A stretch of 44,704 bases of DNA from a virus, in the IMG/VR virus record IMGVR_UViG_3300042301_000543, positions 1 to 44,704 of that record. One strand, 5' to 3'. The notes under the pieces were generated by a model that was given only the letters and a program-made list of their open reading frames with translations, searched no databases and was not told the DNA's origin. Within the stretch, counting starts at the first letter, position 1; each line of letters begins with the position of its first letter. A program made the position numbers and the translations under genes. Shown here in pieces: positions 18,095 through 40,478 of the stretch.

Positions 18095-19069
18095 TTACTT
18101 TATCATCTTGTTTTGACCCCTCATGTTCATGAGTAATCTACCTGGGTGAATATTGCTAATTCTGATTCTTGCATTTCTTAATAGAGCACTCATTTCTTTT
18201 TTAGCCCTAGCTACAATATACTCCTGTACATTAAGTTTATTACTTAATATTGAATACTTAATAAATGAATAGATATAGCTCTCAAACATTTTGTTTACAC
18301 TGATCGCAGAATCATTTCTGGATGCTACTGGCCTTCCAGGCAAGTTAGCTGTAGAGGTGTATTCCATTCCATCTGAAATGTATTCAAGTATGCATGACTC
18401 GTAGGCCATATCATTACTAAAATTTATTACTCCAGATCTCTTGTCTATCTTGAATGTTGGATTCTGATTAGCTGTCTCAGTATTTAAGCCATATCTGCTA
18501 CCAACATTATAGTCAAAGTACCAGTTTCCTCCGTACTCCCATCCCCACATATTGTGGTATGGGCTAGATGGATTAAGGTAAATACTTTTTTGAAGGTTGT
18601 CTAATCTATCTAAATCTAAATCTGAATTTTCAGCATCAATAACTACACCATTTTCGTCAACCACAACTTTAAAGTTGTTATCTTGAACGTACTCTCTAGC
18701 AAAGTTAACCTGAATATTTTCAGTCAACGGTAGGATTAAACCATCTTTGTATAAAGATATTCTAACCCAGTTTACGTAGTCAGAAGGAAGGATGAACTTT
18801 AAATTAGGACCAACTTTTTGCTGAAGAACCTTGATCTCCTTCATCGCATCGAAGTTGAGCTCCTGAATACCCCTCTTAGCATAGAACAATACTTTGTATC
18901 TATTTAAGTTATTCATTAACTCATGGTCTCCCTGATACATCAACATAAAGTTGTTGACAATATCTTCTAGAGATATGTACTGATAAGATCCCCAGTTAGC
19001 ATCCTCTGGAACATTTCCATTGTTGCTATAGTACTGAAGATCAGATAGATATTTATTGTATAGCCCCAT
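18095..19069 (-). CDS. Ring/tail-adaptor protein, gp4- or tubular-A-like (324 aa)
   Basis: A mixed helical/beta protein with conserved-looking segments (FYAKRGIQELNFDAMKEIK, FILPSDYVNWVRISLYKDG). Such sequences are typical of the dodecameric adaptor or ring proteins stacked under the portal in podoviruses of this type; the helical-hairpin start followed by LPxDYxNWVR is the pattern I rely on. The C-terminal third is helical and basic (YIVARAKKEMSALLRNARIR, HPGRLLMNMRGQNK). It overlaps the upstream zincin-like gene by one base and is followed after 1 nt by the stabilisation protein. It shares a LPxDYY/DYV signature with the 233-residue protein at 19527-20228, which suggests two related rings. 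Confidence 0.8.
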   Translation of the reverse strand: MGLYNKYLSDLQYYSNNGNVPEDANWGSYQYISLEDIVNNFMLMYQGDHELMNNLNRYKVLFYAKRGIQELNFDAMKEIKVLQQKVGPNLKFILPSDYVNWVRISLYKDGLILPLTENIQVNFAREYVQDNNFKVVVDENGVVIDAENSDLDLDRLDNLQKSIYLNPSSPYHNMWGWEYGGNWYFDYNVGSRYGLNTETANQNPTFKIDKRSGVINFSNDMAYESCILEYISDGMEYTSTANLPGRPVASRNDSAISVNKMFESYIYSFIKYSILSNKLNVQEYIVARAKKEMSALLRNARIRISNIHPGRLLMNMRGQNKMIK

Positions 19070-19527
19070 TATTTTATAAAATTTAGAACTTTAAGTTTTT
19101 TTATAATCTTATTAGCTTCATCTTCAGCAAAAGTTATTGCCTCTTCTTCTTTATCTTTTATGTTCCAATTATTAAGCAAAATAGCTAGATGCATGGTCTC
19201 ATGCATAATCGCTGTCTTCTGTTCATCAGAACTGTATCTCTTAAACGCACCCATATTCAAGAAAATAAAAGGTTTGTAAGGATCTTTCGCTGTGAGTTTT
19301 TTATCATTTGGATCATAGTTTGTAAGTCCATAGATATAAACTCCATTTCCTTTTGTCTTATCAATCTCTTCTGCCTGAGCGTCTTTTAAATTTAACCCAT
19401 GCATTTCTTCTACATTATAAAACTTAAATATATCGGTTGCATCCTTACCTATTACAAGGATGTAATCTCCCATATCAATTTTTTTAAATCCTGGGGAATT
19501 GCTCTTTATTTTTAAACCTTCTCCCAT
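19069..19527 (-). CDS. Small zincin-like putative metallopeptidase (152 aa)
   Basis: Residues 109-113 read HETMH within KTAIMHETMHLAILL, a canonical zincin HExxH on a hydrophobic helix. An acidic helix at 127-136 (EEEAITFAED) could supply the third zinc ligand. The N-terminal 90 residues are a beta-rich domain (DYILVIGKDATDIFKFYNV). At 152 residues it is a minimal zincin. It sits between two ring/adaptor genes with one-base TAATG overlaps on both sides, so it is almost certainly translated with them. It could process a virion protein during assembly or act as an ejected protease; it could also be structural with only a remnant motif, although both His and the Glu are present. Confidence 0.75.
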   Translation of the reverse strand: MGEGLKIKSNSPGFKKIDMGDYILVIGKDATDIFKFYNVEEMHGLNLKDAQAEEIDKTKGNGVYIYGLTNYDPNDKKLTAKDPYKPFIFLNMGAFKRYSSDEQKTAIMHETMHLAILLNNWNIKDKEEEAITFAEDEANKIIKKLKVLNFIK

Positions 19528-20290: not shown

Positions 20291-21022
20291 CTACTCAACA
20301 TTTCTTTCTAATAACTTAAGTGTCTCAATACCATCGTCTGTCTGTAGGTATTTAGATACGGTTGAGATTCTATGTTCCCCAAATGGGATCGTCATGAACT
20401 TACTCTTATTATCTGAAAGGTTAAAGTAAATATCTCTACCCTTGTTTCTCATCTTAAGAATCTGCTGCTCAAATGCTCTGGCTACAATGTCCTGAACTCT
20501 TAGCATTGGATCATTCAAGATCTCCATGAATCTAGTTGGATAATTCTTAGCGAAAACAATGACATCTCTCTTTAGTTCTGAAGATGTTTTCTTATCTGCC
20601 TGAATTCCTAAACCAATTCTTGCAACTGTTTCCATTAGTGAAAGTTCCATTGATTTAGCAGCAATAAGTGCGTTGACCTCAATATCTAGATCAATAAGAT
20701 CATTCTGAGCGTCTTTCTCTGGATCTAGTTCTTCAAAAATCTTACCATTCCCTGGATGATAATAAAGAAACTGTTGTAACACTGGATTACTTTCTGGTAC
20801 GTGTAGCATACCATCTTCAAACACAATTGGCTCAAGAAGCACATTGCCATCTTGTTCGTCAATAAATGGGCTTGGTTGATTTGCTGAGTACCTCAACTGT
20901 CTGTTAGCTTTACCGTCAAAGTAAAGTAACGGCCTTCTAGCTGTCCCTTTTGATGGGATCATCAAGCTAAGTGGCGCATCTGATCTTAGGAGAACATAAG
21001 TTCTCGATTTTAATTGTTCCAT
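20291..21022 (-). CDS. Conserved phage structural protein of unknown function (243 aa)
   Basis: Contains segments I recognise from many Bacteroidota and large environmental phage genomes: RPLLYFDGKANRQLRYSAN, SPFIDEQDGNVLLEPIVFEDG near residues 30-70, and a central helical region (ELKRDVIVFAKNYPTRFMEIL). It ends with a basic strand/helix segment (MTIPFGEHRISTVSKYLQ). No enzymatic motif, signal peptide or membrane segment. It lies between the basic capsid-adjacent proteins and the ring genes and is bracketed by its own terminators, so it is expressed as a monocistronic or read-through unit. Probably a virion component, possibly head-associated; no specific function can be assigned. Confidence 0.8.
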   Translation of the reverse strand: MEQLKSRTYVLLRSDAPLSLMIPSKGTARRPLLYFDGKANRQLRYSANQPSPFIDEQDGNVLLEPIVFEDGMLHVPESNPVLQQFLYYHPGNGKIFEELDPEKDAQNDLIDLDIEVNALIAAKSMELSLMETVARIGLGIQADKKTSSELKRDVIVFAKNYPTRFMEILNDPMLRVQDIVARAFEQQILKMRNKGRDIYFNLSDNKSKFMTIPFGEHRISTVSKYLQTDDGIETLKLLERNVE

Positions 21023-21043: not shown

Positions 21044-21070
21044 AATAGAGGGAGCCACAGCGACTCCCTC
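21044..21070 (-). terminator. Intrinsic terminator after the Lys/Ala/Pro-rich protein gene
   Basis: 7-bp stem GAGGGAG/CTCCCTC (arms 21064-21070 and 21048-21054) with a 9-nt loop, 9 nt past the stop of the gene at 21080-21574, followed on the minus strand by TATTTTC. The U-tract is weaker than at the 20.27 kb terminator. Confidence 0.7.
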
Positions 21071-21079
21071 AGTTAATTG

Positions 21080-21574
21080 TTACTTCTTTGCCTTGAATTT
21101 ATTAACTACTTCTCTAGCTCCAGACTTACCAGTATAACCTTGTCTTGCAATGTTTCCTTTTGATGTAACTTTTCCAGTTGAATCCCTCATAATATAGTTA
21201 TAGGTCTGTTCATCTGGCTTATTCATGTTTGTAGTATCAATTGACATTCTATATCCTTTGTTACCAACAGGAACATCCATTAATGGTGCTCTTTTATTAA
21301 TAGTACTAGGCTTCTTTGCTGCAACAGCAGGAGCAGGTGCAGGAGCAGGTGCAGCAGCCTTTTTAGGAGCAGGTGCAGCAGCTTTTTTAGGAGCAGGAAC
21401 AGGCTTTTTAGCAGCAGGCTTTTTCGCAACAGCAGCAGCAGCAGACTTTCTTGCTGCCTCTTTAATAGCTTTTTGACGTGCGTTTTCAGCAGCATACTTT
21501 GTAATCCCAGTTCCTGTACCAGCACCTAAAGTAGTTTTACCTTTTTTAGGTGGGTCATTTTTTTTAATAGCCAT
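21080..21574 (-). CDS. Lys/Ala/Pro-rich basic protein, capsid-adjacent (164 aa)
   Basis: The N-terminus (KTTLGAGTGTGITKYAAEN) is shared, with changes, with the neighbouring 185-residue protein, so the two are paralogous at least there. Residues about 43-90 are a low-complexity tract of Lys/Ala/Pro repeats (KKAAAPAPKKAAAPAPAPAP), like histone H1 or bacterial nucleoid-protein tails. The C-terminal 70 residues are a small basic domain (GYRMSIDTTNMNKPDEQTYNY, SGAREVVNKFKAKK). With its strong positive charge and position next to the capsid gene, a DNA-binding or capsid-interior role is plausible but unproven. It could also be a head decoration protein. Confidence 0.8.
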   Translation of the reverse strand: MAIKKNDPPKKGKTTLGAGTGTGITKYAAENARQKAIKEAARKSAAAAVAKKPAAKKPVPAPKKAAAPAPKKAAAPAPAPAPAVAAKKPSTINKRAPLMDVPVGNKGYRMSIDTTNMNKPDEQTYNYIMRDSTGKVTSKGNIARQGYTGKSGAREVVNKFKAKK

Positions 21575-21586
21575 TGTTTTATTTGT

Positions 21587-22144
21587 TTATTTCTTGCGAA
21601 TTCTTTGAATCTTACGTTGAGCAGATGCCTTCATAGTTCCATCCTTTTTCTTACCAGTAGCAAGCAAAGAACTAATCTGCTTTTCTTTGTCTGTGTAAGT
21701 TCTAGATGGAGCAATTGAAGGTGCCTTTGGAGCAGTCTTAGAAAGACCAGCAACACCAATTCCACTGATACCAGGGCTAGTAGTTTTAGTCGAAACAGGA
21801 GCATTTGCAGTTGCAAAAGAAGCTCTCTTCTGAGCAATTGAAGGAGCTTTAGGTGCAGATTTAACTGCGCTTCTTGCTTCTTCAGCTCTAGCTTTAGCTA
21901 ATAAATCAGTTCTTGTATAGTTAGAAGTCTCTCTGATTGCTTTTTTAATACCTGTTTGCTGATAATTTTCTCCAGCATACTTCATAATCCCAGAACCAAC
22001 TCCAGCACCTAGCTTAGTTGTTTTCTTAGGTTGCAATGAAGATTTATGCTTTTGAATATCACTTGCTTTTTTAGCTTCATAAGCAGACTGAATGTCAGAT
22101 CTTCTTTTTCTTTGGGCCGCAAGGGCTTTTTGTACATTGTCCAT
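21587..22144 (-). CDS. Basic Lys/Ala/Ser-rich protein, paralogue of the next gene (185 aa)
   Basis: Highly basic, with a Lys/Arg-rich N-terminus (QKALAAQRKRRSDIQSAYEAKK) and, at residues about 42-60, a motif matching its downstream neighbour (KLGAGVGSGIMKYAGENYQQ). A Ser/Ala/Pro/Lys-rich middle with repeats of KAPSIAxxR (KAPSIAQKR, KAPSIAPSR) follows. The C-terminus is basic (SAQRKIQRIRKK). There is no fold-defining motif. It begins 20 nt beyond the capsid-gene terminator and is followed by its paralogue after a 12-nt gap. Likely a virion-associated nucleic-acid-binding or capsid-lining protein, by composition and place only. Confidence 0.75.
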   Translation of the reverse strand: MDNVQKALAAQRKRRSDIQSAYEAKKASDIQKHKSSLQPKKTTKLGAGVGSGIMKYAGENYQQTGIKKAIRETSNYTRTDLLAKARAEEARSAVKSAPKAPSIAQKRASFATANAPVSTKTTSPGISGIGVAGLSKTAPKAPSIAPSRTYTDKEKQISSLLATGKKKDGTMKASAQRKIQRIRKK

Positions 22145-22164: not shown

Positions 22165-22191
22165 AAAAGGAAGGGCCAATCGGCCCCTCCT
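22165..22191 (-). terminator. Intrinsic terminator after the major capsid gene
   Basis: GC-rich stem GGGCC/GGCCC with a 4-nt loop (GATT), extended by AGGA/TCCT across one mismatch, then UUUU on the minus strand. It starts 9 nt past the capsid stop codon (22201). A terminator directly after a capsid gene is a common phage arrangement. Confidence 0.8.
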
Positions 22192-22200
22192 ATTTTACTA

Positions 22201-23619
22201 TTACTTCTCGAACAAGAAGAAGTTGTTAGCACCCATGGTGCACAACGCTCTTTCAGACAAGAAGTGTACCTCCATTGCATCCAAGCTTGAAGTCTGAGCT
22301 CCACCTGCGGAACCAGTCACCCAAGTCTTGTACTTACGATCTTCAGTCTCAGAAGCTCTGTAACGAACGTGCAAGAATGGACGCTTAGCGTTCTTACCAA
22401 GTACGTTATCGTACACAGTAGTAGTTCCAGCTGGAACAAGAACACCAGACACAGCACCACCGATCAATCCACCACGCATGGTTGGATCGTTCAAGTACTT
22501 CCAGTCAGACTTGTAGAAGTCATAACCTCTACGGAAGCCAGTGAAACCAAGAGTAAGAGCCATCTTCTCATCGTTGTCAAATAGACCGTAAGAAGTACCT
22601 CCAGCTCCGTAGCTGTTCTGAGCTGCCAACATATCATCGATGTCGAATCCAAACTGACGATCCAAGAAGATTACGTTCTCCTCGATAGATCCCTGCTTGT
22701 CAAGACGAGAAACGATGCTATCGAAATCATCCAAAGTAGATGGGTTACCACCTGCCCATACGTTACCTCTCTTACCGATTGCGTCAAATAGACCTTCAGA
22801 TCCTTTGAAGCCCAACGCCTTAGCAGATCCAGCAGCAGAACCTGCGGCAGGGATAGCTTCGATCATTGCAGTCTCAAGATAATCTTCGAAACGAAGACGA
22901 GTCTCGTGCTGAGACTTTAGGTACCACAAGAAACCTGGGCCATTGTCACCTTCAACCTCTACCCATCCGATCTGAGCCATGTCAGAACCAGATACTGCAT
23001 AGTGGTCTTTGATGATGATTGGAGAGTTCTCGAAGATCTCACCGTCAGACTCAAGAGAGTTTTCCATTCCAAGAGTTCCTTTCTTAAACTCAGAACCATA
23101 AACGAATACGGATACGGTCTTAGTTGCTGCGAAAGTTTGTCCAGCAGCTTCGTAGTAAGCTACGTCAAAAGTTCTTGCTGCATAGTCAACAGCAGTAACG
23201 ATACCTTTGTTTAGACCTTGAGCACCAGCTCCTTCTTCAGAGATAAGGACAGTCTGTCCAACACGGATAGCAATGCTACCGTTTACAAATCCTTTACCAG
23301 ATAGCTGACCAGCAGGTACGGTAAAAGTTGCATTAGAGTCGCCAGCGGCTCCATCTTGAGTTACGTTTACATACTTAGTATGAAGACGTCCTTGCTCAGT
23401 CCACTTGATCAAGTCAGAAGTAGAAGGCAATTCTGCGCTCACCAATCTTAAGAAAGATGCTACGCTTCGGTTACCGTAACGCTCAAATTCTTTCTCGTAA
23501 GTATCAGGTAGATACTGGTTCAAGAAGTTGAAGTCGGTAATGTAGTTTGTTGCGAGGGCTACTCGCTCTGCACTTGGCTGTAATTGAAAGCCAGGTACAG
23601 TTTGTACTGATCCTGCCAT
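22201..23619 (-). CDS. Major capsid protein (HK97-type fold expected)
   Basis: I start at ATG 23617-23619 (MAGSVQTVPG), giving 472 residues. An in-frame ATG at 23667 would overlap the scaffold gene and add a low-complexity KNKKNK segment. The N-terminal region YGNRSVASFLRLV (48-60) followed by IKWTEQGRLH (71-80) is a pattern I associate with crAss-like and related Bacteroidota podovirus capsid proteins. Length, the place between scaffold and a terminator, and visibly higher GC and a more restricted codon choice than in neighbours all fit a very highly expressed capsid gene. It forms the icosahedral shell with the scaffold encoded just upstream. Confidence 0.9.
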   Translation of the reverse strand: MAGSVQTVPGFQLQPSAERVALATNYITDFNFLNQYLPDTYEKEFERYGNRSVASFLRLVSAELPSTSDLIKWTEQGRLHTKYVNVTQDGAAGDSNATFTVPAGQLSGKGFVNGSIAIRVGQTVLISEEGAGAQGLNKGIVTAVDYAARTFDVAYYEAAGQTFAATKTVSVFVYGSEFKKGTLGMENSLESDGEIFENSPIIIKDHYAVSGSDMAQIGWVEVEGDNGPGFLWYLKSQHETRLRFEDYLETAMIEAIPAAGSAAGSAKALGFKGSEGLFDAIGKRGNVWAGGNPSTLDDFDSIVSRLDKQGSIEENVIFLDRQFGFDIDDMLAAQNSYGAGGTSYGLFDNDEKMALTLGFTGFRRGYDFYKSDWKYLNDPTMRGGLIGGAVSGVLVPAGTTTVYDNVLGKNAKRPFLHVRYRASETEDRKYKTWVTGSAGGAQTSSLDAMEVHFLSERALCTMGANNFFLFEK

Positions 23620-23632
23620 TGTTTTGTTTTTT

Positions 23633-24691
23633 TTATTTTTTAAACCTAATTCGAAGACCTCGACCATCGGTGTCTCCTACGCTAGTAACCTTAAAACTTC
23701 CCTTGTTAATCACTTCAGGGGATCTTCTAACTTCGAAGTTTATGTTCTTGCTTGATTTAGCTTCCTTTTCGACAGCGTCAGCAATCCCCTGCTCATAGAA
23801 AAACTTAGCAAATTTCTCTGGGTTCATAGCAACAGCTAATGACTTGTGATAACCTTTTGCATCCTCAATCAAACCATCATTATTTACGAATTTCGCAATG
23901 AAGTTATTGATATTGGACTGAACCTTCTTCAATTCATTGTGGTCTCCTGGTGAAAACTTCAGTTCTTTGTCTCCAATCTTGAAATCAAAACCTTTGAAAT
24001 CGCTGTTGAAAACTTCATCTGTCTTCTTAAGAAACCATTCTGCCTGACGTTGTTCTAGCTCTTGGTTACCGCTATTCCTAGCTGAGTATTCCTTGTAAGC
24101 TTTAAGTGCCTCTTGATCCTCAGCAGAAAGGCTACCATAGCTTGACTCAAGCGGTGCCTTGTACTTCTGCTTTTGTTCCTCAAGGAACTTCTTAGCTTTT
24201 GCAAGTTCTTTTTTCTTTTCAATCTGTTTTTTCTTGATATCCTTCTCGTCATCGAGGTCCTCATCGTAGCTAAACTTATCAGCTATCAAGTAATCGATTT
24301 CTTCAGTATCAAGATCACTCTCCTTTTGAGAGTAATATTCTTTTAGTAGTTGATCTGGATTCATTGAATCCAAGTCAGTATTAATCTTGAAAAAGTCATT
24401 AAGACCTCTTCCAGTTTCCTTTTTAAAGTTCAAGAACGCAGAAACATCTTCTGGTAGTTCTTCCTTTTGTACTGCGAATAGATCCTCTACGCTTGAGAGT
24501 TTCTTTCCGTACTTCTTGTCAAGAAAGTCAAGGACTTTATCCTCGCTTAAATCTTCTTGCCCAACAACTACAGTTTCTTCTATAACTGCTGGAGCAGAAA
24601 CTTGCTCTTCGTGCTTTTTAAGCAACTCTTCTTCGACTTGTTGAGCAGACTTCTGCTCCACATCGTCTAACGCTCTTACTTTTAATTCCAT
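23633..24691 (-). CDS. Capsid scaffolding protein (352 aa)
   Basis: Acidic and strongly helical, rich in Glu/Lys/Asp coiled-coil segments (EEELLKKHEEQVSAP, KKKQIEKKKELAKAKKFLEEQ), as in scaffolds of HK97-fold phages. The C-terminus turns basic (SFKVTSVGDTDGRGLRIRFKK), the usual capsid-binding end. It lies between portal (28 nt gap) and capsid (13 nt gap), the standard scaffold position. No protease motif is seen, so it is probably removed by exit or by a separate protease rather than by self-cleavage. Confidence 0.85.
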   Translation of the reverse strand: MELKVRALDDVEQKSAQQVEEELLKKHEEQVSAPAVIEETVVVGQEDLSEDKVLDFLDKKYGKKLSSVEDLFAVQKEELPEDVSAFLNFKKETGRGLNDFFKINTDLDSMNPDQLLKEYYSQKESDLDTEEIDYLIADKFSYDEDLDDEKDIKKKQIEKKKELAKAKKFLEEQKQKYKAPLESSYGSLSAEDQEALKAYKEYSARNSGNQELEQRQAEWFLKKTDEVFNSDFKGFDFKIGDKELKFSPGDHNELKKVQSNINNFIAKFVNNDGLIEDAKGYHKSLAVAMNPEKFAKFFYEQGIADAVEKEAKSSKNINFEVRRSPEVINKGSFKVTSVGDTDGRGLRIRFKK

Positions 24692-33168: not shown

Positions 33169-34701
33169 TTACATATCTACTATTGCTGCATAAGCAGTTA
33201 CGTTATATGTCGCAGCATTTGAAACTGAAATATTTAATGTTCTTAATGCACCACTTCCTCCAATACTAAAGGTTGCAGCACCAACGTATCCACTTGACCA
33301 ATCATTTGATGCAATAACACTTATAGCTGAATTAGGTGTTCCCCAACCAGTATCAGTTGCACCTATAAACAATAAATATTGTCTTTGAGCATTTGCGTTA
33401 TTATTCCATCGGATAGTTACAGAAATAAGAATATTTGTACGAATATTAAAATAACTAGATGACACCAATGTAAAAGTTGAATTAGTCGTAATATTAACAC
33501 TTTCAACAGCACCAACTTCAACTTTAGCAGTACTTAATGTACCTGAAAATAATCCTGATCCATTAACATTTAATTTTCTACCATTGTCTGAAACCGTTCC
33601 AATACCAATATTACCATTAGTTGTATTTATATTAAATTGAGGAGTACTACTTGTTCCAAGGGATATAGAACTGTTACCTAATATAAATCTAGCAGAATTA
33701 CCTCTTGCATTAACAATATGAAACTGGAATTGATTAGCAACATACTGTTGAATAGTTCTTCCATTACCATCAGTATCAAAATATATACTGTTACCAACTC
33801 CTTCTACATGAATATTACCATTTACACCAAGTTTTTCTAACAGACTACTTGCTCCAATACCAACATTACCACCTGATGTAATGGTCAGTCGTGGTGCATC
33901 ATTTGTTTCAAAACGCATTCCAATATTAGAGGAAGTGCCTAAACGAATAATATCTGCATTATCATATTTAAAAGTGGCATTTCTAACTGTACCACTTGAA
34001 TTTCTGCCTTCTAAATCAACTTGTGCTTCTCCATTTGTTGCAGTAGATTGAAGCGTTAACACTGAGCCTCCACTTGACCTAATTACTGATAAATTACCAC
34101 TAAACCGCCCTGTTCCGTTAACGTCTAGCTTAAAATTAGGATCACTTGTAGCAGTTCCAATAACTACGTTTTGAGTTGATTGAAATATTCTTAATGCTTG
34201 TGTACCTATTGAGCCATCACTACCAACATTAATTCTAAAGTCATAAACACTTCCAGTATAACCTAGTCTCCATGTTCCACTAGCACCTCCACCTTGTCTA
34301 AATGCTAACCAAGCTTGGTCTGCATCACCTAATTTTGAAATAGTTATAGCATTACCAAGAGTTGATAAGCTTCTGTCAATTGTTAGGTTTCTTTCAGAAG
34401 CATTAAACAAAAAATTTGAACTACCTGTTATAGCAGAACCTGATGACCAATAAGTTACCTGTCCTGTTGAGCCCGTACCTGTTACTGGATTAGTAAGTAA
34501 GCCTTGAGCACCTATGTCTGAGAGGAGTTCTGCGCCTGTACGGTATTTAATAATGCCTGTGTCTGAGACTAGGAACCTGTCAGTATCAGTAGTAGCATTA
34601 GCAATAGTGTTTACATCTAAGCTTCCTGCAATGCCCACATCCCCATTGGCACCTAAGTCAAAGTAGTTTATTAATTCCGATGTCCCCGTATTCTTGCTCA
34701 T
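33169..34701 (-). CDS. Tail fibre / receptor-binding-type protein, secondary (510 aa)
   Basis: Gly/Ser/Thr/Asn-rich beta protein made of repeated units with the pattern xIGTxxxxxxKLDVNGTGRFSG (VVIGTATSDPNFKLDVNG, NVGIGASSLLEKLGVNG, NIGIGTVSDNGRKLNVNG). The same units occur near the C-terminus of the 1925-residue fibre. The C-terminal 110 residues are a different beta domain (FTLVSSSYFNIRTNILISVT, NISVSNAATYNVTAYAAIVD). There is no S74 autochaperone. It overlaps the upstream fibre stop by one base (TAATG). Likely a second fibre or the receptor-binding tip. Its first 29 bp are duplicated downstream of its stop. Confidence 0.8.
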   Translation of the reverse strand: MSKNTGTSELINYFDLGANGDVGIAGSLDVNTIANATTDTDRFLVSDTGIIKYRTGAELLSDIGAQGLLTNPVTGTGSTGQVTYWSSGSAITGSSNFLFNASERNLTIDRSLSTLGNAITISKLGDADQAWLAFRQGGGASGTWRLGYTGSVYDFRINVGSDGSIGTQALRIFQSTQNVVIGTATSDPNFKLDVNGTGRFSGNLSVIRSSGGSVLTLQSTATNGEAQVDLEGRNSSGTVRNATFKYDNADIIRLGTSSNIGMRFETNDAPRLTITSGGNVGIGASSLLEKLGVNGNIHVEGVGNSIYFDTDGNGRTIQQYVANQFQFHIVNARGNSARFILGNSSISLGTSSTPQFNINTTNGNIGIGTVSDNGRKLNVNGSGLFSGTLSTAKVEVGAVESVNITTNSTFTLVSSSYFNIRTNILISVTIRWNNNANAQRQYLLFIGATDTGWGTPNSAISVIASNDWSSGYVGAATFSIGGSGALRTLNISVSNAATYNVTAYAAIVDM

Positions 34702-34706
34702 TAGTT
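34678..34706 (-). repeat. 29-bp direct repeat, gene-start copy
   Basis: Contains the start codon (34699-34701) and first eight codons of the 510-residue fibre gene. Exact match to 33122-33150; flanking bases diverge on both sides. The two copies bracket the whole fibre gene at a distance of 1556 bp. Confidence 0.9.
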
Positions 34707-37700
34707 CTTACTTTTTAATTCGTCTAACTCTGCCTTAAGTTCTTTTATGCCTTCAATTAATAACGGAATAAGTTTATCATAATATACAGTCAAATAATTT
34801 TGGCCTGACTTTGATGTATTATCGTCAAAGTTTGTATCAAATGGAGCCAAACAAACTGCATTTGGTAAAACTTTCTCAACTTCTTGCGCAATTACTCCAA
34901 TGTCAAATGTTCTAGAGGTTTCATACAATTCTTGATTCCATTTAAATGTAACTCCTCTTAACTGTTTAATTTTGTCAATTGCATTTGGGATAATCTCAAT
35001 ATTATTTTTTAGTCTTTCGTCAGATGCATTTTGTGTAAGGGTTCCCCTTAAAGTTGCATTACCATTATCTAAAGCAACAAAATTATTAAATGCATCGGTG
35101 CTATTATTAAATCTATAACCAGCTGAGCCGCAAATAAAATAAGAACTTACTGGAACCCTATAAATTCCATCAACCCAAATGTCACCATTTACCCTAAGTT
35201 TATATCCATTATCTGTTGTCGTTCCAATCAGCACGTTGCCTGCCGAATTAATAGATAATGCAACAGTTCCTTGTGTTGCAAATTTTAATGCATTATCGCT
35301 TCTAATAATAAAATCTGTTGCTGCTGCACCTGATGATAAAGAAGCACCAAATCCAAGATAACCTGTTCCTCCTGCGCCTGTGCTCTGAAACTGCCAATAA
35401 GGTGTTGTGCCTGATGATTGAAAACTACCCGAAAGTTGTACGCTACTTGTAAATGTGAATGTTCCCGTCACGAATATTCCAGTTGAATTAGCGGTCAATC
35501 TACCAGAATCTCCAACTGCTAAAGTAACGGATGTGCTTGCGTTTAAAACTGCGTTTGTACTTCTTGCTATTAAACTATAATTAGTTCCGCTTGGTGTTAC
35601 GCCAACTGGATATATTGCTCCCCATCCGTCCGTTCCAGTATATGCCCTTATAATTAAACCTTGTGTTCCATCACTAAACCTCCCAGTGCCGTTAACGTCT
35701 AGCTTAAAGCCAGCGTCTGTAGTTGTGCCGATTAAAACGTTACCGCCATCTAAATAAGAGGTTCCGCTTGCTCTAATTGCTACCTTTTGAACATTTGTTT
35801 TATAAAGTCCTAAATAACCCTCGTCAGTAGTTGTGCTATTAAGATTACCTATAAATGCTTTAAGAGTTGTCCCATCTGATTTGTAAAAATTTAATGCTCC
35901 ATCATTAATGTTTTGATTCATATTACCATTAAAAGTAGCTGCTCCTGAACTTCTATTTAATGTCAAAACATTTGTTGAACCTCTGTTTATATAAAAATCA
36001 TCGTTAACGTATAACTCCCAAAGTTGGACGTTATCTTGTAAAATTAAAGAGCAATCTTGTGCGCCATAAACTCCAACAAATCTATCTGCTCCGCTTGGCG
36101 ATGTAAATGAATAAGTACCAATTTCAACATTTCTTCCGTTGGTAATACGCATTGCTTCGGCTGAATTTGCATAAAATACAACACTATTATTTGACCAAGT
36201 GCCAAAAATTGCATCGTTATTAATTCCAGATTCTTTGCCAACTCTTATGTCTCCACCATCTCCGCATGTATATCTAGTAAATGTTTTTGTACTTCCAGAT
36301 GCAGAATCGTTTATTTGCATTATCGCTCCATTATCTGAACTAGAACCAAATATAAAATTGCCTCCACTTGATAAAGTAAATGGCTGATTTGTCCCAGTAG
36401 ATAAATAAAGATTACTTGATAAATTACCAATAGAAGCTAAAACAGAAGATTGAGCAGCATTCCAAAAAGTAATTTGATTTTCACCATTTAATCCAGCAGT
36501 TCGACCAACTAAATCTAAACTGTAAGAGCTAGATGGAGTTTTTATTTGCAATGTTGCATAACTAGCATTTGGATTTTGCCCCACGCCAACTTGTGTACCG
36601 TTGTCAATTACTTGGCTATTCCCAATCGTTGTACTTCCCGTGAACTTTGGCAAGTAGTTAGTCGTTCCTGTTCCCGTGACTGGGTTAGTAAGAGCGTTTT
36701 GTTTGCCGTTCAGCTGAGTCTGAATAGAGCTTGTCACTCCCTTAACGTAGCTAAGCTCAGTCAATGATGGGTAGGTCGCAGTGCTTAAACTCGCTATAGT
36801 TGTGGAGGCTGTGAAGTACGCCAACTCATTAGTCGTACCTGTACCTGAGATGCTGTTCACAATCCCAGAAGTGTACTTAATAATGTCCACAATGTTGCCT
36901 GCCATTGTCCCTACAGTTAGCACCACGGTCGTGCCGTTAGTAGCTGTGTAGTCAGACGATGTCAATCGAACACCATTGATGAACACGTCTACAAGCCCAA
37001 CAGTGTACCCACCTGTTACAGTGAACGTAGTTTGTGAAGCCGTAGCAATGTATGTTTGTATCTCTCTAGCAGATGGATTGACCCCTACAGTCCATGAACG
37101 GTTTGCTGTCAAGTCATACGTAACGCCATTAATACTTAATGTCCTAGCATCTGTTACAGGAGTGTACCCCAACGCTGTAGTGACATCACTGCTAGTCAAT
37201 GTAACTGCACCTGTTCTAGTGTTGAAGCTAGTAACACCACCTTGGTACTCAGGGATATTAAGAACGCCTGTAACGCTGCTATAAGTAGCAGGGCCACTGG
37301 TCCCCGTTGTTGTCAAACTAATCGATGCTCTACTTGTAGATGTTACTTGGCCAAGCGTAGCAAACTCATTGTTATTGACAGCATTGCTACCAATCACACG
37401 TCCCTTGAAGTTAGCCACCACACCTGATGGTAGGTCAGCAATGGCTCCTGTTATAGCGTCTACGACACCGTTAGTCTCTCCAACAATAATGCTTGAAGCG
37501 AACTGCTGTACGCCTGTGTTGTAAGCGTAGATAGGATATCTGCCTGTAGGATTGCTTGCGTAGTAGTTTAAAAGATTTGTGTTTACAGATGCACTTAGAA
37601 GTCTTTCTCCTGTAACTAATACACCTCTAAAGAATGATATAGGGGTAGTTGTAAGTCCAGTTCCAGTTCCATTATTAAACGTATTTGCAAAGCTCCATGT

Positions 37701-40478
37701 AGCCTCACCTGCTGGAGCCAACTCATTTTGATTGTAAGCTACCTTTAGCGCATAAATATTACTTGTATCAATCTTAAAGTTTAGCACATCTATGGCAGCC
37801 CCAACCCTCATAATGGTCTTGAGGCCTGTGATAGTTTGGTCAGTGGCTAGTGTAACGTACCCACTCAAGTCAGTGCTGTAGTTAGGAATATTTAAAGTGC
37901 TTCCAATTAAAGTAGCGGAACCAGTTGTTCCAGTAGTAGTTAATGTAATAGCATTCTGCTTTCCATTAAAAGTAATCCAATCGGCAGAAGACAAAGCACC
38001 TCTAATCGTAGAAGTTGCTGTAGGTAGATTAAATGTATGGGTAGCAACTGAGCTTGCAATATTAAAGTCAGTACCACTAGTACCTGTAGTAAGATATTGA
38101 ACCTGCTTGGTAAGCCCATTAAGAGCAGTCAAGCCTGTGGTAAATGTTGTAATTACTTGACACAGGTGACTATTCTCAGTATGCAGTGTTATAGTTTTGC
38201 CTGAGTTGTTTACATATACCCTAATAGCAAGTCTATCAGTAACTGCTAATACAGTCTCAGGGACAGCTAATGGGGAAAAGTAAGGATTGATGGTAGTACC
38301 AAAAGCAATAAACTCAGGGTTAGCAGAGTTGTCTGCAATCAAAGTGAATGTGGTACCATCATACTTGTACAACTCAACATAGAATGATGGAGTGCCCCCA
38401 CTAGATGATGAAGAGAAATAAAGCTCAAAGTTCCAGTTTCCTGCTGGAATTAATAATGATTCAGGGTCATTGGCATCAGTAATAAACTGAGAAATGTATC
38501 CGTTTGTAGCAATATTAAAATCAGTACCAGCTCCAAATACTGGAACCTTACTCATCTCATAGTACGTGTTGCCTGCAAATGTTCCTTGATTTATAGAGCC
38601 ATTTAAGTAGTAAGATACAGATGAGCCTCCGCCACCTCCGCCACTTGGAAAGTCTCCAAGAGTACCATCACCTCTAACATATTGTGCTGCCGTACCTGCG
38701 CCAACAACAGTTAGCGTCCCAGAACTTGTTATAGGGCTATTCGATACAGTAAACGCATTAGGCATACTAAGCCCCACACTTGTAACCGTACCTACAAATT
38801 GGTCAGTGTACTGAGGTATATTTAAAGTATTTCCAACTAGAGTGGCAGGGCCACTCGTTCCAATTGTTGTTAAAGTATTAACAGTCCCAACACTCCAAGT
38901 TCTATCTGCTGATAGATCGTAAGTTACTCCATTAATAGTTAACTGACGAGTTCTGTACGCATACCTGTTATCACCCCACGTAGTATCAAAAGCAATAGTA
39001 ATGTCAGAAGACAAGTTGCCTCCACCAGTTAATCCAGTTCCTGCGTTAACAGATCTTGTAGTAGGAACATACTGACTAGTGTCAACAGATCCATCTGCTT
39101 TTAAAAACTGAGAAGACGTTCCACCAGCTTTAATAAACGAATTTGCTGTAATGTTATTTGAACCAAGGTTTACATTTGCATTTGCTCCAGTGTAAGGAAC
39201 AAACTTATTGTCAGCCTCAGTCTTTGTATAAGCGTCAGTAATTCCATACCCACTTAATGTGGTAGGTGTTCCAGTAATCTTTGACCAGTTTATTGAAGAA
39301 ATTGAATCTCCTGAAATAAGACCAAACAATAGATTACCAGCAGATCTTAATAGCACATGACCATCAGTAGTCGCCTGTATATCCGCAGGGTCTCCAGTAG
39401 TAGAAGCAGATCGTCCTATTACAGACGTTCCTACGCTGTCTCTGAGCTTTTCATTGCTCACAGCGTTGTTTGATATGGTTGTAGAAATGGACGTCTTACC
39501 GCTGCCTGTAACGTCTCCAGAGAGCGTTATAGTTTGGTTCTCCAAAAGAAATGGAGGAACTCCAGTTATCTTTGTAAATGCAAGCGTGTTAATCCATGTA
39601 GGATTGTCGTAAGCTTGAGAAAGTCTAGGATAAAAAGATTGATAGTCACCCTCTAAAGCTAGAATAGCTCCTATCCTTCCAAAAACGCTAGTTACAGCAT
39701 CAGTATTATCTACTTTCTCCCAAATAACTCCGTTAGATATAATCCAGTCACCGATCTGATAATCAACTCCACCAAACACTCCAGCAGCGGAAACAACGTA
39801 GTAGTGACCTCTTTCTTCTGGGATTAGTGGATTTAGAGTAGGAGTATTAGTAAACGCATTCCAGGTACCCATGTATTGAACCTGACCAATAATTGAGTCA
39901 GGTATCTGAGACAAAGGAATCTTCCCACCAGAATCCAAAGATGCAACTCCATTAGGAACTCCAATAGATGTTTTGTCAACCTTAAGATCCAACAAAATAT
40001 CAATTTCATTCTCAAGGTTTAATATAGCTGAATTAACTTGACCAAGGGTAGCAGACTCAGTAGTAAGTACAGCTGGTGGATGAATTATACGTCTTAAGCT
40101 AGATATAGATTGACCTAAGTCGTTTGGAATAACAAAAATGTCACCATCTCCTCCAATAACTCTAAGTGCGTCAGCACCTGAAACAGTACTATTTATTACA
40201 GCTCCATTAGCAGTGTAAAGTGATCCACCAACAGCAAGCCTGTAACCCATGGCGTTTACGCCTCCAATTACAATGTTTGATCCGTCTTGAAAAATTTGTG
40301 AATTACCTAATGTTTGAGTTCCTGTAAAAACAGGAATATACCCAGGGTTTCCAGACCCAAAGATTTGGTTACCAAAAAAGTCAGACACACTAATTCTAAT
40401 GTTCTGCTCTTCGGTATAGCCAACAATGAAATCTAGATCACCAGGATCACTTACTAATAGAAAGTCCGAAAATCTCAT
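34701..40478 (-). CDS. Long tail fibre with C-terminal S74 intramolecular chaperone (1925 aa)
   Basis: The N-terminal 100 residues (SDFLLVSDPGDLDFIVGYTE) probably attach to the tail. The body is built of repeats: three copies near residues 533, 845 and 1053 of the type LTTxGTSGxATxxxxxLNIPxY, two of the type INGVTYDLSANRTWxVG, and fibre units such as ALSSADWITFNGKQ. A Gly8 linker lies near residue 620. The end carries the peptidase S74 / endosialidase chaperone domain: S1819-DERLK followed by FDIGVIAQEVEKVLP and YLTVYYDKLIPLLIEGIKEL. In this family the Ser-Lys pair (S1819, K1824) cleaves just before the Ser after the trimer folds. The final helix (KELKAELDELKSK) is the typical coiled coil. 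Host recognition role. Confidence 0.92.
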   Translation of the reverse strand: MRFSDFLLVSDPGDLDFIVGYTEEQNIRISVSDFFGNQIFGSGNPGYIPVFTGTQTLGNSQIFQDGSNIVIGGVNAMGYRLAVGGSLYTANGAVINSTVSGADALRVIGGDGDIFVIPNDLGQSISSLRRIIHPPAVLTTESATLGQVNSAILNLENEIDILLDLKVDKTSIGVPNGVASLDSGGKIPLSQIPDSIIGQVQYMGTWNAFTNTPTLNPLIPEERGHYYVVSAAGVFGGVDYQIGDWIISNGVIWEKVDNTDAVTSVFGRIGAILALEGDYQSFYPRLSQAYDNPTWINTLAFTKITGVPPFLLENQTITLSGDVTGSGKTSISTTISNNAVSNEKLRDSVGTSVIGRSASTTGDPADIQATTDGHVLLRSAGNLLFGLISGDSISSINWSKITGTPTTLSGYGITDAYTKTEADNKFVPYTGANANVNLGSNNITANSFIKAGGTSSQFLKADGSVDTSQYVPTTRSVNAGTGLTGGGNLSSDITIAFDTTWGDNRYAYRTRQLTINGVTYDLSADRTWSVGTVNTLTTIGTSGPATLVGNTLNIPQYTDQFVGTVTSVGLSMPNAFTVSNSPITSSGTLTVVGAGTAAQYVRGDGTLGDFPSGGGGGGSSVSYYLNGSINQGTFAGNTYYEMSKVPVFGAGTDFNIATNGYISQFITDANDPESLLIPAGNWNFELYFSSSSSGGTPSFYVELYKYDGTTFTLIADNSANPEFIAFGTTINPYFSPLAVPETVLAVTDRLAIRVYVNNSGKTITLHTENSHLCQVITTFTTGLTALNGLTKQVQYLTTGTSGTDFNIASSVATHTFNLPTATSTIRGALSSADWITFNGKQNAITLTTTGTTGSATLIGSTLNIPNYSTDLSGYVTLATDQTITGLKTIMRVGAAIDVLNFKIDTSNIYALKVAYNQNELAPAGEATWSFANTFNNGTGTGLTTTPISFFRGVLVTGERLLSASVNTNLLNYYASNPTGRYPIYAYNTGVQQFASSIIVGETNGVVDAITGAIADLPSGVVANFKGRVIGSNAVNNNEFATLGQVTSTSRASISLTTTGTSGPATYSSVTGVLNIPEYQGGVTSFNTRTGAVTLTSSDVTTALGYTPVTDARTLSINGVTYDLTANRSWTVGVNPSAREIQTYIATASQTTFTVTGGYTVGLVDVFINGVRLTSSDYTATNGTTVVLTVGTMAGNIVDIIKYTSGIVNSISGTGTTNELAYFTASTTIASLSTATYPSLTELSYVKGVTSSIQTQLNGKQNALTNPVTGTGTTNYLPKFTGSTTIGNSQVIDNGTQVGVGQNPNASYATLQIKTPSSSYSLDLVGRTAGLNGENQITFWNAAQSSVLASIGNLSSNLYLSTGTNQPFTLSSGGNFIFGSSSDNGAIMQINDSASGSTKTFTRYTCGDGGDIRVGKESGINNDAIFGTWSNNSVVFYANSAEAMRITNGRNVEIGTYSFTSPSGADRFVGVYGAQDCSLILQDNVQLWELYVNDDFYINRGSTNVLTLNRSSGAATFNGNMNQNINDGALNFYKSDGTTLKAFIGNLNSTTTDEGYLGLYKTNVQKVAIRASGTSYLDGGNVLIGTTTDAGFKLDVNGTGRFSDGTQGLIIRAYTGTDGWGAIYPVGVTPSGTNYSLIARSTNAVLNASTSVTLAVGDSGRLTANSTGIFVTGTFTFTSSVQLSGSFQSSGTTPYWQFQSTGAGGTGYLGFGASLSSGAAATDFIIRSDNALKFATQGTVALSINSAGNVLIGTTTDNGYKLRVNGDIWVDGIYRVPVSSYFICGSAGYRFNNSTDAFNNFVALDNGNATLRGTLTQNASDERLKNNIEIIPNAIDKIKQLRGVTFKWNQELYETSRTFDIGVIAQEVEKVLPNAVCLAPFDTNFDDNTSKSGQNYLTVYYDKLIPLLIEGIKELKAELDELKSKN

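Follow-up and report, generated by a model that had tools for sequence, protein, structure and literature searches.

Small accessory proteins that are injected with the genome are best described in bacteriophage T4. The internal proteins IPI, IPII and IPIII (Ip1-3) of Tequatrovirus are small, accessory, diverse and otherwise non-homologous, with a short N-terminal sequence in common; the available parts of two accounts describe them as sharing only a targeting sequence, as contacting packaged DNA through lysines and as being injected (PMC3012670, PMC12373910). For the crass-like phage crAss001, the available part of the virion study describes an internal cargo space and proposes protein ejection through the tail (PMC10172136). 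The crAss001 cargo proteins (gp45 and gp46) and virion RNA polymerase proteins constitute a second known system for comparison, and this cargo, as far as the available part of that study describes it, is large (60-277 kDa), and its genes follow that of the muzzle.

The stretch of DNA analysed here, referred to as the window, is a 44.7-kb IMG/VR virus record with a crass-like structural block on the minus strand. The block is arranged in the order terminase, portal, a 352-aa acidic protein, the probable major capsid protein, B, A, a 243-aa protein (g243), the adaptor-like g239, an HExxH protein, a 324-aa virion protein (g324) and the muzzle protein. A and B occupy the interval between the probable major capsid gene and g243, which is referred to as the slot (Table 1). 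The explanation that we prefer, and hold tentatively, is that A and B are accessory virion cargo encoded by an exchangeable cassette, which would be packed with the DNA and ejected in the manner of the T4 internal proteins. Its main support comes from the position in the capsid slot, the diversity of the proteins and their independent movement.

Table 1. Features of the cassette and its borders, listed along the minus strand of the window.
Feature	Coordinates	Strand	Basis
Probable major capsid protein gene, left slot border	22201..23619	-	PHROG, Calle_1 annotation, phi38:1 lysines
Terminator-like stem-loop between capsid gene and B	22168..22191	-	Terminator scan; folding of relatives' segments
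Gene B, 185-aa basic protein, net +28	21587..22144	-	ORF and composition; slot survey
LGAG module in B, LGAGVGSGIMKYAGEN	21965..22012	-	Some relatives have SRTDSAGMQ or other sequence instead
B C-terminal two-helix domain (predicted)	21590..21703	-	Residues 151-185; common to 11 aligned B-type proteins
Gene A, 164-aa basic protein, net +27	21080..21574	-	ORF and composition; slot survey
N-terminal signature of A, MAIKKNDPPKKG	21539..21574	-	Pattern in 34/54 distinct slot proteins
LGAG module in A, LGAGTGTGITKYAAEN	21482..21529	-	94% mean nt identity, 5 distinct A genes, 10 pairs
Probably disordered Lys/Ala/Pro linker of A	21302..21424	-	pLDDT <50 for residues 1-93; tandem repeat
A C-terminal domain, four strands and one helix (predicted)	21083..21301	-	Residues 98-163; common to 14 aligned A-type proteins
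Terminator-like stem-loop after A	21048..21070	-	Terminator scan; folding of relatives' segments
g243, 243-aa protein, crAss001 gp33 place, right slot border	20291..21022	-	Position; weak gp33 profile match (13.3 bits)

The first-pass annotation had placed the two genes next to the capsid gene, and this placement held up. The neighbouring product matches a PHROG annotated 'virion structural protein' (E 2e-104), and its homologue in Calle_1 is annotated 'structural protein / major capsid protein'. In the available part of a phi38:1 study, 'gp067' is a putative major capsid protein present in virions, with methylated lysines at 359 and 385 (PMC13288928). In KC821614, the phi38:1 homologue of the window protein is numbered gp093 and gp067 denotes a short hypothetical gene, and the gp numbering clearly differs between the two sources; gp093 carries lysines at both positions, which agrees with the capsid label and is no proof of capsid identity. 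Together with gene order, these lysines, the Calle_1 annotation and the PHROG match form the basis of the label. The ORF spans 22201-23667, and translation probably starts at 23619, 16 codons past the first ATG, since many relatives align only from about residues 10-20. In capsid protein sequence, the window is closest to an uncultured Manatee Spring phage (65% identity), followed by Maribacter phage Panino (52%), Flavobacterium elemo phages (48%), Cellulophaga phi38:1 and Calle (about 40%) and the phi13:2 group (26%).

Downstream of the ring/adaptor genes, the product of 13881-18092 matches the muzzle family PF25731 (crAss_MUZ) with 51.2 bits against a cut-off of 27, the best stretch covering profile positions 4-207 of 1224, and the window phage is a muzzle-bearing (crass-like) podovirus. 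Profiles of seven window genes were compared with 18 crAss001 proteins, with E-values calculated for these 18, and the collinear partner was the best match for six of the seven. g239 matched gp34 with 20.6 bits (hhalign 60%), and g243 matched gp33 with 13.3 bits but with only 1.8% in hhalign; weak profile matches linked the portal to gp20 (4.7 bits), g324 to gp43 (4.5), the muzzle to gp44 (4.3) and the capsid to gp32 (2.5), and the 352-aa protein gave no match to gp31 in this comparison (E 18). In view of these scores, the 'gp33 place' of g243 refers to gene order and is weakly supported by sequence. The presence of a crass-like muzzle and a gp34-like gene in order makes a capsid and tail cargo store plausible. 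Unlike the crAss001 cargo, A and B are small accessory proteins whose genes follow the capsid gene. Elsewhere in the window, 34701-40478 encodes a 1925-aa fibre-like protein with a C-terminal Peptidase_S74 intramolecular chaperone domain.

The initial description of two adjacent basic, Lys/Ala/Pro-rich proteins sharing the motif LGAGxGxGIxKYAxEN was confirmed. A consists of 22% K+R and 5% D+E (pI 10.5) and B of 22% K+R and 6% D+E (pI 10.6), and the next highest net charge among the 27 window ORFs tabulated is +8. The KKAAAPAP repeat of A is a tandem repeat at the DNA level, with a 24-bp unit present 3.4 times at 21341-21418. In a six-frame translation of the window, the LGAG pattern matches only in A and B. 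The Smith-Waterman score of the pair is 123, compared with a shuffled mean of 48.6 (sd 8.0, maximum 92), and none of 2000 shuffles reached it. BLAST with filters off aligned A 4-97 with B 34-139 (36% identity, E 4.8e-13); judged by eye, similarity is strong between A 4-46 and B 34-75, and the remainder is low-complexity. The homology ends short of the C-terminal domains and is not whole-length, and these domains are unrelated (hhalign probability 0.3%). T4-type cleavage triplets have the form I/L-x-E. Such triplets were noted by eye past the module in A and B of the window and were set aside as a candidate feature, being absent in B of L007, L008 and L090; no prohead protease was among the family-scan matches.

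In AlphaFold2 predictions, residues 1-93 of A have pLDDT below 50 and the domain at 98-163 has block pLDDT mostly of 67-85, and B has an N-terminal helix and a small two-helix domain at 151-185 (block pLDDT 91-95). Each protein has a long lysine-rich, mostly low-confidence part, which is probably disordered, and a small conserved C-terminal domain; this combination of low-confidence tail and small domain is one of the points behind the cargo explanation. Alignments of A-type and of B-type proteins show the C-terminal domains to be better conserved than the basic tails. For a 35-codon piece of the A domain in 27 distinct sequences (window included), the median dN/dS of 0.27 indicates constraint, as calculated from 271 of 351 pairs after removal of pairs with dS of 0, dS above 1.5 or a failed estimate, with one row (L138) misaligned by a 3-aa insertion.

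A had nothing better than E 0.27 in PHROG or E 0.16 in Pfam (noise, 0.16-0.57), B had no match in either up to E 1, and 14 A-type proteins searched against Pfam gave nothing related, the best unrelated match having E 0.01. No significant match was obtained for A or B in PDB sequence searches, for A in Foldseek against PDB and BFVD, or for B in Foldseek against PDB; in VIA-align, the best Z for A was 4.3, which is not significant, and none of 21 chains reached Z of at least 2 for B. A dsRBD-like or DUF1508-like assignment of the A domain was unsupported, as the Atu0232 NMR structure, which we take to belong to the DUF1508 family, ranked fourth in Foldseek with E 0.66. In tblastn searches of GenBank phages, A, B and the B C-terminal piece had no match and the A C-terminal piece had a single chance-level one (E 3), and a scan of genome contigs with the A alignment returned 32 pattern matches and no relative. 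No anti-defence or other activity was suggested by the family and fold searches. DUF6321 (PF19846) and DUF5872 (PF19197) likewise comprise small basic phage proteins without an assigned function, but they are different families that neither A nor B matches. The view that such proteins are undocumented is in line with these searches and with the literature surveyed, in the available parts of which, with subscription journals mostly outside coverage, no description of A/B-type proteins was found.

The predicted architecture also bears on a possible outer location. Outer decoration proteins are often accessory and fast-changing, and A and B are both; a small beta-rich domain on a long flexible linker could belong to a head decoration or fibre-anchoring protein whose basic tail reaches outwards. 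Such a role is improbable in view of the strong positive charge and of the absence of any significant fold match, so that no carbohydrate-binding or Ig-like domain was recognised.

The slot survey covered the best 80 of at least 597 IMG/VR capsid relatives, near-copies included, of which 7 were left out for a missing border; among the 73 loci with both borders, the slot was filled in 9 and empty in 64. Addition of loci found via A or B, which raise the occupancy, gave 111 distinct slots (45 filled, 66 empty). The slot was also empty in the six named phage regions viewed and in crAss001, which has 71 bp and no gene there, and 85 phage records with capsid homologues contained no A or B match with the low-complexity filter on. 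Per filled slot there are one to three proteins, 63-231 aa in length and with a K+R content of 19-30%, as picked by a score favouring modules and charge, and these were grouped as A, B, C, D and five singletons. Among loci up to L165, window included, the slot contains 34 of the 35 distinct A-type genes (both borders known for 32, one for 2) and 14 of the 15 distinct B-type genes (12 and 2), amounting to 48 of 50 genes (44 and 4); the other two are in the distant locus L097.

On a capsid tree of 103 rows (97 different), built by a quick method and with long-branch warnings, slot occupancy requires 5 changes, compared with about 30.6 for shuffled labels, so filled slots cluster in few clades. 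The clade to which the window belongs has 10 rows, every one with a filled slot; B is present in 10 and A in 6, and the neighbours of B and the modules within A and B vary. B is constant in this clade and hence not optional there; outside it, the slot is empty in most capsid relatives.

These counts bear most directly on a histone- or protamine-like role, in which A and B would serve only within the capsid, by neutralising and condensing the DNA there or by coating the inside of the wall, without a task in the host. Net charges of +27 and +28, pI values above 10, the KKAAAPAP repeats and the adjoining capsid gene are all compatible with it, and the presence of B in 10 of 10 rows means that B could be needed in the window's clade. 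Packed basic proteins have a precedent in the adenovirus core proteins VII, V and X/mu, which the available part of the source describes as basic, virion-internal and DNA-associated (PMC5491326). However, with 64 of 73 slots empty in the survey of the top 80 relatives (of at least 597) and 85 phage records without an A or B match, DNA packing in these heads does not in general depend on A and B. Near-identical capsids are accompanied by different cassettes, the C-terminal domains are conserved better than the basic tails, and no H1 (linker-histone) or HC2 model was among the Pfam matches of the 14 A-type proteins up to E 10, a search in which HMMER filters may hide low-complexity matches. Adenovirus and its core proteins are unrelated to the phage and proteins considered here, and A and B differ from them in forming an exchangeable set, which is absent from many relatives. 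An exclusively histone-like role is a possibility, less likely than ejected cargo; on its own, we regard it as unlikely. The first-pass annotation had suggested DNA condensation or capsid lining; a capsid-internal, DNA-contacting role remains plausible, and a required role is less likely because most slots surveyed are empty.

The cassette does not follow its flanks. In Mantel tests on 30 loci, capsid distances correlated with those of g243 (r 0.98) and far less with those of the A domain (r 0.22, P about 0.009). Over aligned columns only, the window and L151 share 97% nt identity in the capsid gene and 74% in A, and the window and L100 share 83% in the capsid gene, 69% in g243 and 87% in A. 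A moves independently of its flanks, and the cassette is exchanged between phages, partly as pieces of genes.

The exchanged pieces can be followed as short modules. Ten module patterns, composed once the proteins had been read, were run against plus-strand ORFs from 165 loci plus the window part; they match slot genes only, some with one border known. Short modules, like the N-terminal signature described below, recur in families that are otherwise unrelated. SRTDSAGMQ (SRTDSAGMQxFG) is found in A-type genes of L127, L133 and L135 and in B-type genes of L094, L095 and L151, with 79-87% DNA identity between the two types. LGAG-type A genes also occur in phages without B (L100, L119). Judging from these sequences, the LGAG piece behaves as an exchangeable module, and the SRTDSAGMQ module does likewise. 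A looser variant of one module lies outside the slot in L223. The module LPQVTVxASRIVDxP / LPEAVVTASRMTDKP, which we take to resemble the TonB box of TonB-dependent receptors, occurs in slot A genes of L101, L103, L106, L108 and L022 and in L223:10075-10557.

An N-terminal signature, defined after looking at the proteins as [DG]P, up to two of GPVIL and [KR]K within the first 28 residues, is present in 21 of 28 A, 5 of 5 C, 4 of 5 D and 4 of 5 singleton proteins, and in 0 of 11 B proteins. This amounts to 34 of the 54 distinct slot proteins, spread over 7 of the 8 groups, compared with 0 of 708 core proteins and 5 of 1331 other ORFs of at least 60 aa, at least two of the five being A genes in contigs without g243. 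When one protein was drawn per group, a mean of 6.06 of 8 groups carried the signature; two kinds of shuffle gave means of 0.10 and 0.16.

Relatives of A and B also exist in a different genomic setting. A weak B match pointed to L097, a section of the 111-kb record G001, whose muzzle gene scores 71 bits, and A/B relatives were present in three more contigs of 108, 110 and 27.7 kb. An A-like gene lies directly before or overlaps a B-like gene in L254 (the contig of L097), L255 and L256, and a B-like gene stands alone in L257; the pairs run in the opposite order to the window's, and in the translations seen these relatives have no LGAG motif. A relative of the window HExxH protein is present in two of the four stretches (L254, L256), and L097 encodes a DUF6321 protein close to its A- and B-like genes. 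G001 gave no match to the window capsid protein. Its portal gene was recognised (E 2.7e-7), and the A/B-like genes are more than 30 kb from it; the presumed capsid gene, assigned by gene order beside the portal, is 131 bp from the next gene, with no ORF of 60 aa listed in between, i.e. an empty slot. The A/B-like genes of all four distant contigs are not beside a recognised capsid gene, and confinement of A and B to the capsid slot is ruled out by these relatives. These contigs suggest that A and B are separate families which often occur side by side, and that they came to share the LGAG motif later.

The proposal in the first-pass annotation that A and B are tandem duplicates with diverged tails did not survive this comparison. 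The adjacency of the genes and the significant similarity over A 4-97 and B 34-139 speak for duplication, but the similarity stops before the unrelated C-terminal domains, the two families are distinct even in distant contigs that lack the motif, LGAG-type A genes occur without B, and the swappable SRTDSAGMQ module shows the same pattern. Tandem duplication is very improbable.

The cassette is bounded by the two top-listed of 18 terminator-like sites in the window, where 5.9 were expected from a shuffled control run on the window only. In RNA folding without a shuffled control, energies below -8 kcal/mol were obtained for the segment after the capsid gene in all 46 filled slots and for that before g243 in 44 of 45, and all 62 folded empty slots form stem-loops too; the folding covered few segments between slot genes, most of these being below 30 bp. 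A stricter hairpin scan, which allowed neither G-U pairs nor mismatches and was superseded by the folding, had detected stem-loops in 8 of 46 segments following the capsid gene, 9 of 46 preceding g243 and 48 of 66 empty slots. Another stem-loop lies between g243 and the adaptor gene g239, and such stem-loops are thus common between these genes and not special to the cassette.

Since the stem-loops set the cassette apart from both neighbours, it may be separately dosed. This would suit non-virion late proteins that bind nucleic acids and act in the infected cell, e.g. on late RNA or the host nucleoid, and the distant A/B-like genes, which lie away from recognised structural genes and among other small basic genes, also fit such proteins. 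The location of 48 of 50 distinct A/B genes in the capsid slot, with the other two in the distant contig L097, argues against this role, which we consider rather unlikely.

Under the preferred cargo explanation, A and B would be late products, synthesised along with the capsid protein. They would be taken up into the prohead, sit within the packaged DNA by contacts between lysines and phosphates, and exit through the tail with the DNA. The C-terminal domain might then act in the host, e.g. against a defence, and such an action would explain the fast turnover of these proteins; the shared N-terminal modules could serve packaging or ejection. Small, basic, diverse, capsid-linked proteins that are lacking in many relatives and have short N-terminal parts in common follow the pattern of the T4 internal proteins. 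This is a functional analogy and not a claim of homology: the signature is missing from B, A and B have no family match, and packaging, injection and anti-restriction are features of the T4 proteins; for A and B, we infer virion location, DNA binding, injection and host action. Against ejected cargo, B is without the N-terminal signature (0 of 11) and constant in its own clade, distant A/B-like genes lie away from a recognised capsid gene, the stem-loops are not cassette-specific, the family scans revealed no prohead protease, and neither they nor the fold searches pointed to an anti-defence activity. If A and B are packed and ejected, the slot would be a sequence signpost to injected accessory proteins in many uncultured crass-like phages, and the N-terminal signature could serve as a tag for loading chosen proteins into these heads. 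Exchangeable payloads of muzzle-tailed podoviruses, beyond the conserved polymerase and cargo proteins, thereby become testable.

A more far-reaching and doubtful possibility is that the slot is a dedicated assembly site for cargo proteins, where short modules would be combined at the sub-gene scale within stem-loop-bounded cassettes. The parts would be the N-terminal signature, a middle module (LGAG, SRTD or LPxVTVxASRIVDxP), the Lys/Ala/Pro linker and the C-terminal domain; recurring modules would act as packaging or ejection signals and C-terminal domains as payloads, forming a fast-evolving injected arsenal of crass-like phages.

The HExxH protein (19069-19527, 152 aa, HETMH motif), encoded between the adaptor and 324-aa virion genes, has 163 relatives in IMG/VR and no match at E 0.001 in 50,697 GenBank phage records; in near relatives such as L007, L010, L088, L091, L096 and L110, its gene is missing and the adaptor gene directly adjoins the 324-aa gene. 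Small basic ORFs lie within 1.5 kb downstream of HExxH relatives in 33 of 81 loci, near-copies included. Those examined (L097, L191, L182, L178, L194, L199, L223) include DUF6321 and DUF5872 proteins, and others end in KCKxGC or similar and have modules common to one another. A second variable slot is located directly after g243 and before the adaptor gene (L021, L039, L059, L062, L074 and others), and in several phages with an empty basic slot it contains one or two Lys/Arg-poor ORFs of about 90-265 aa.
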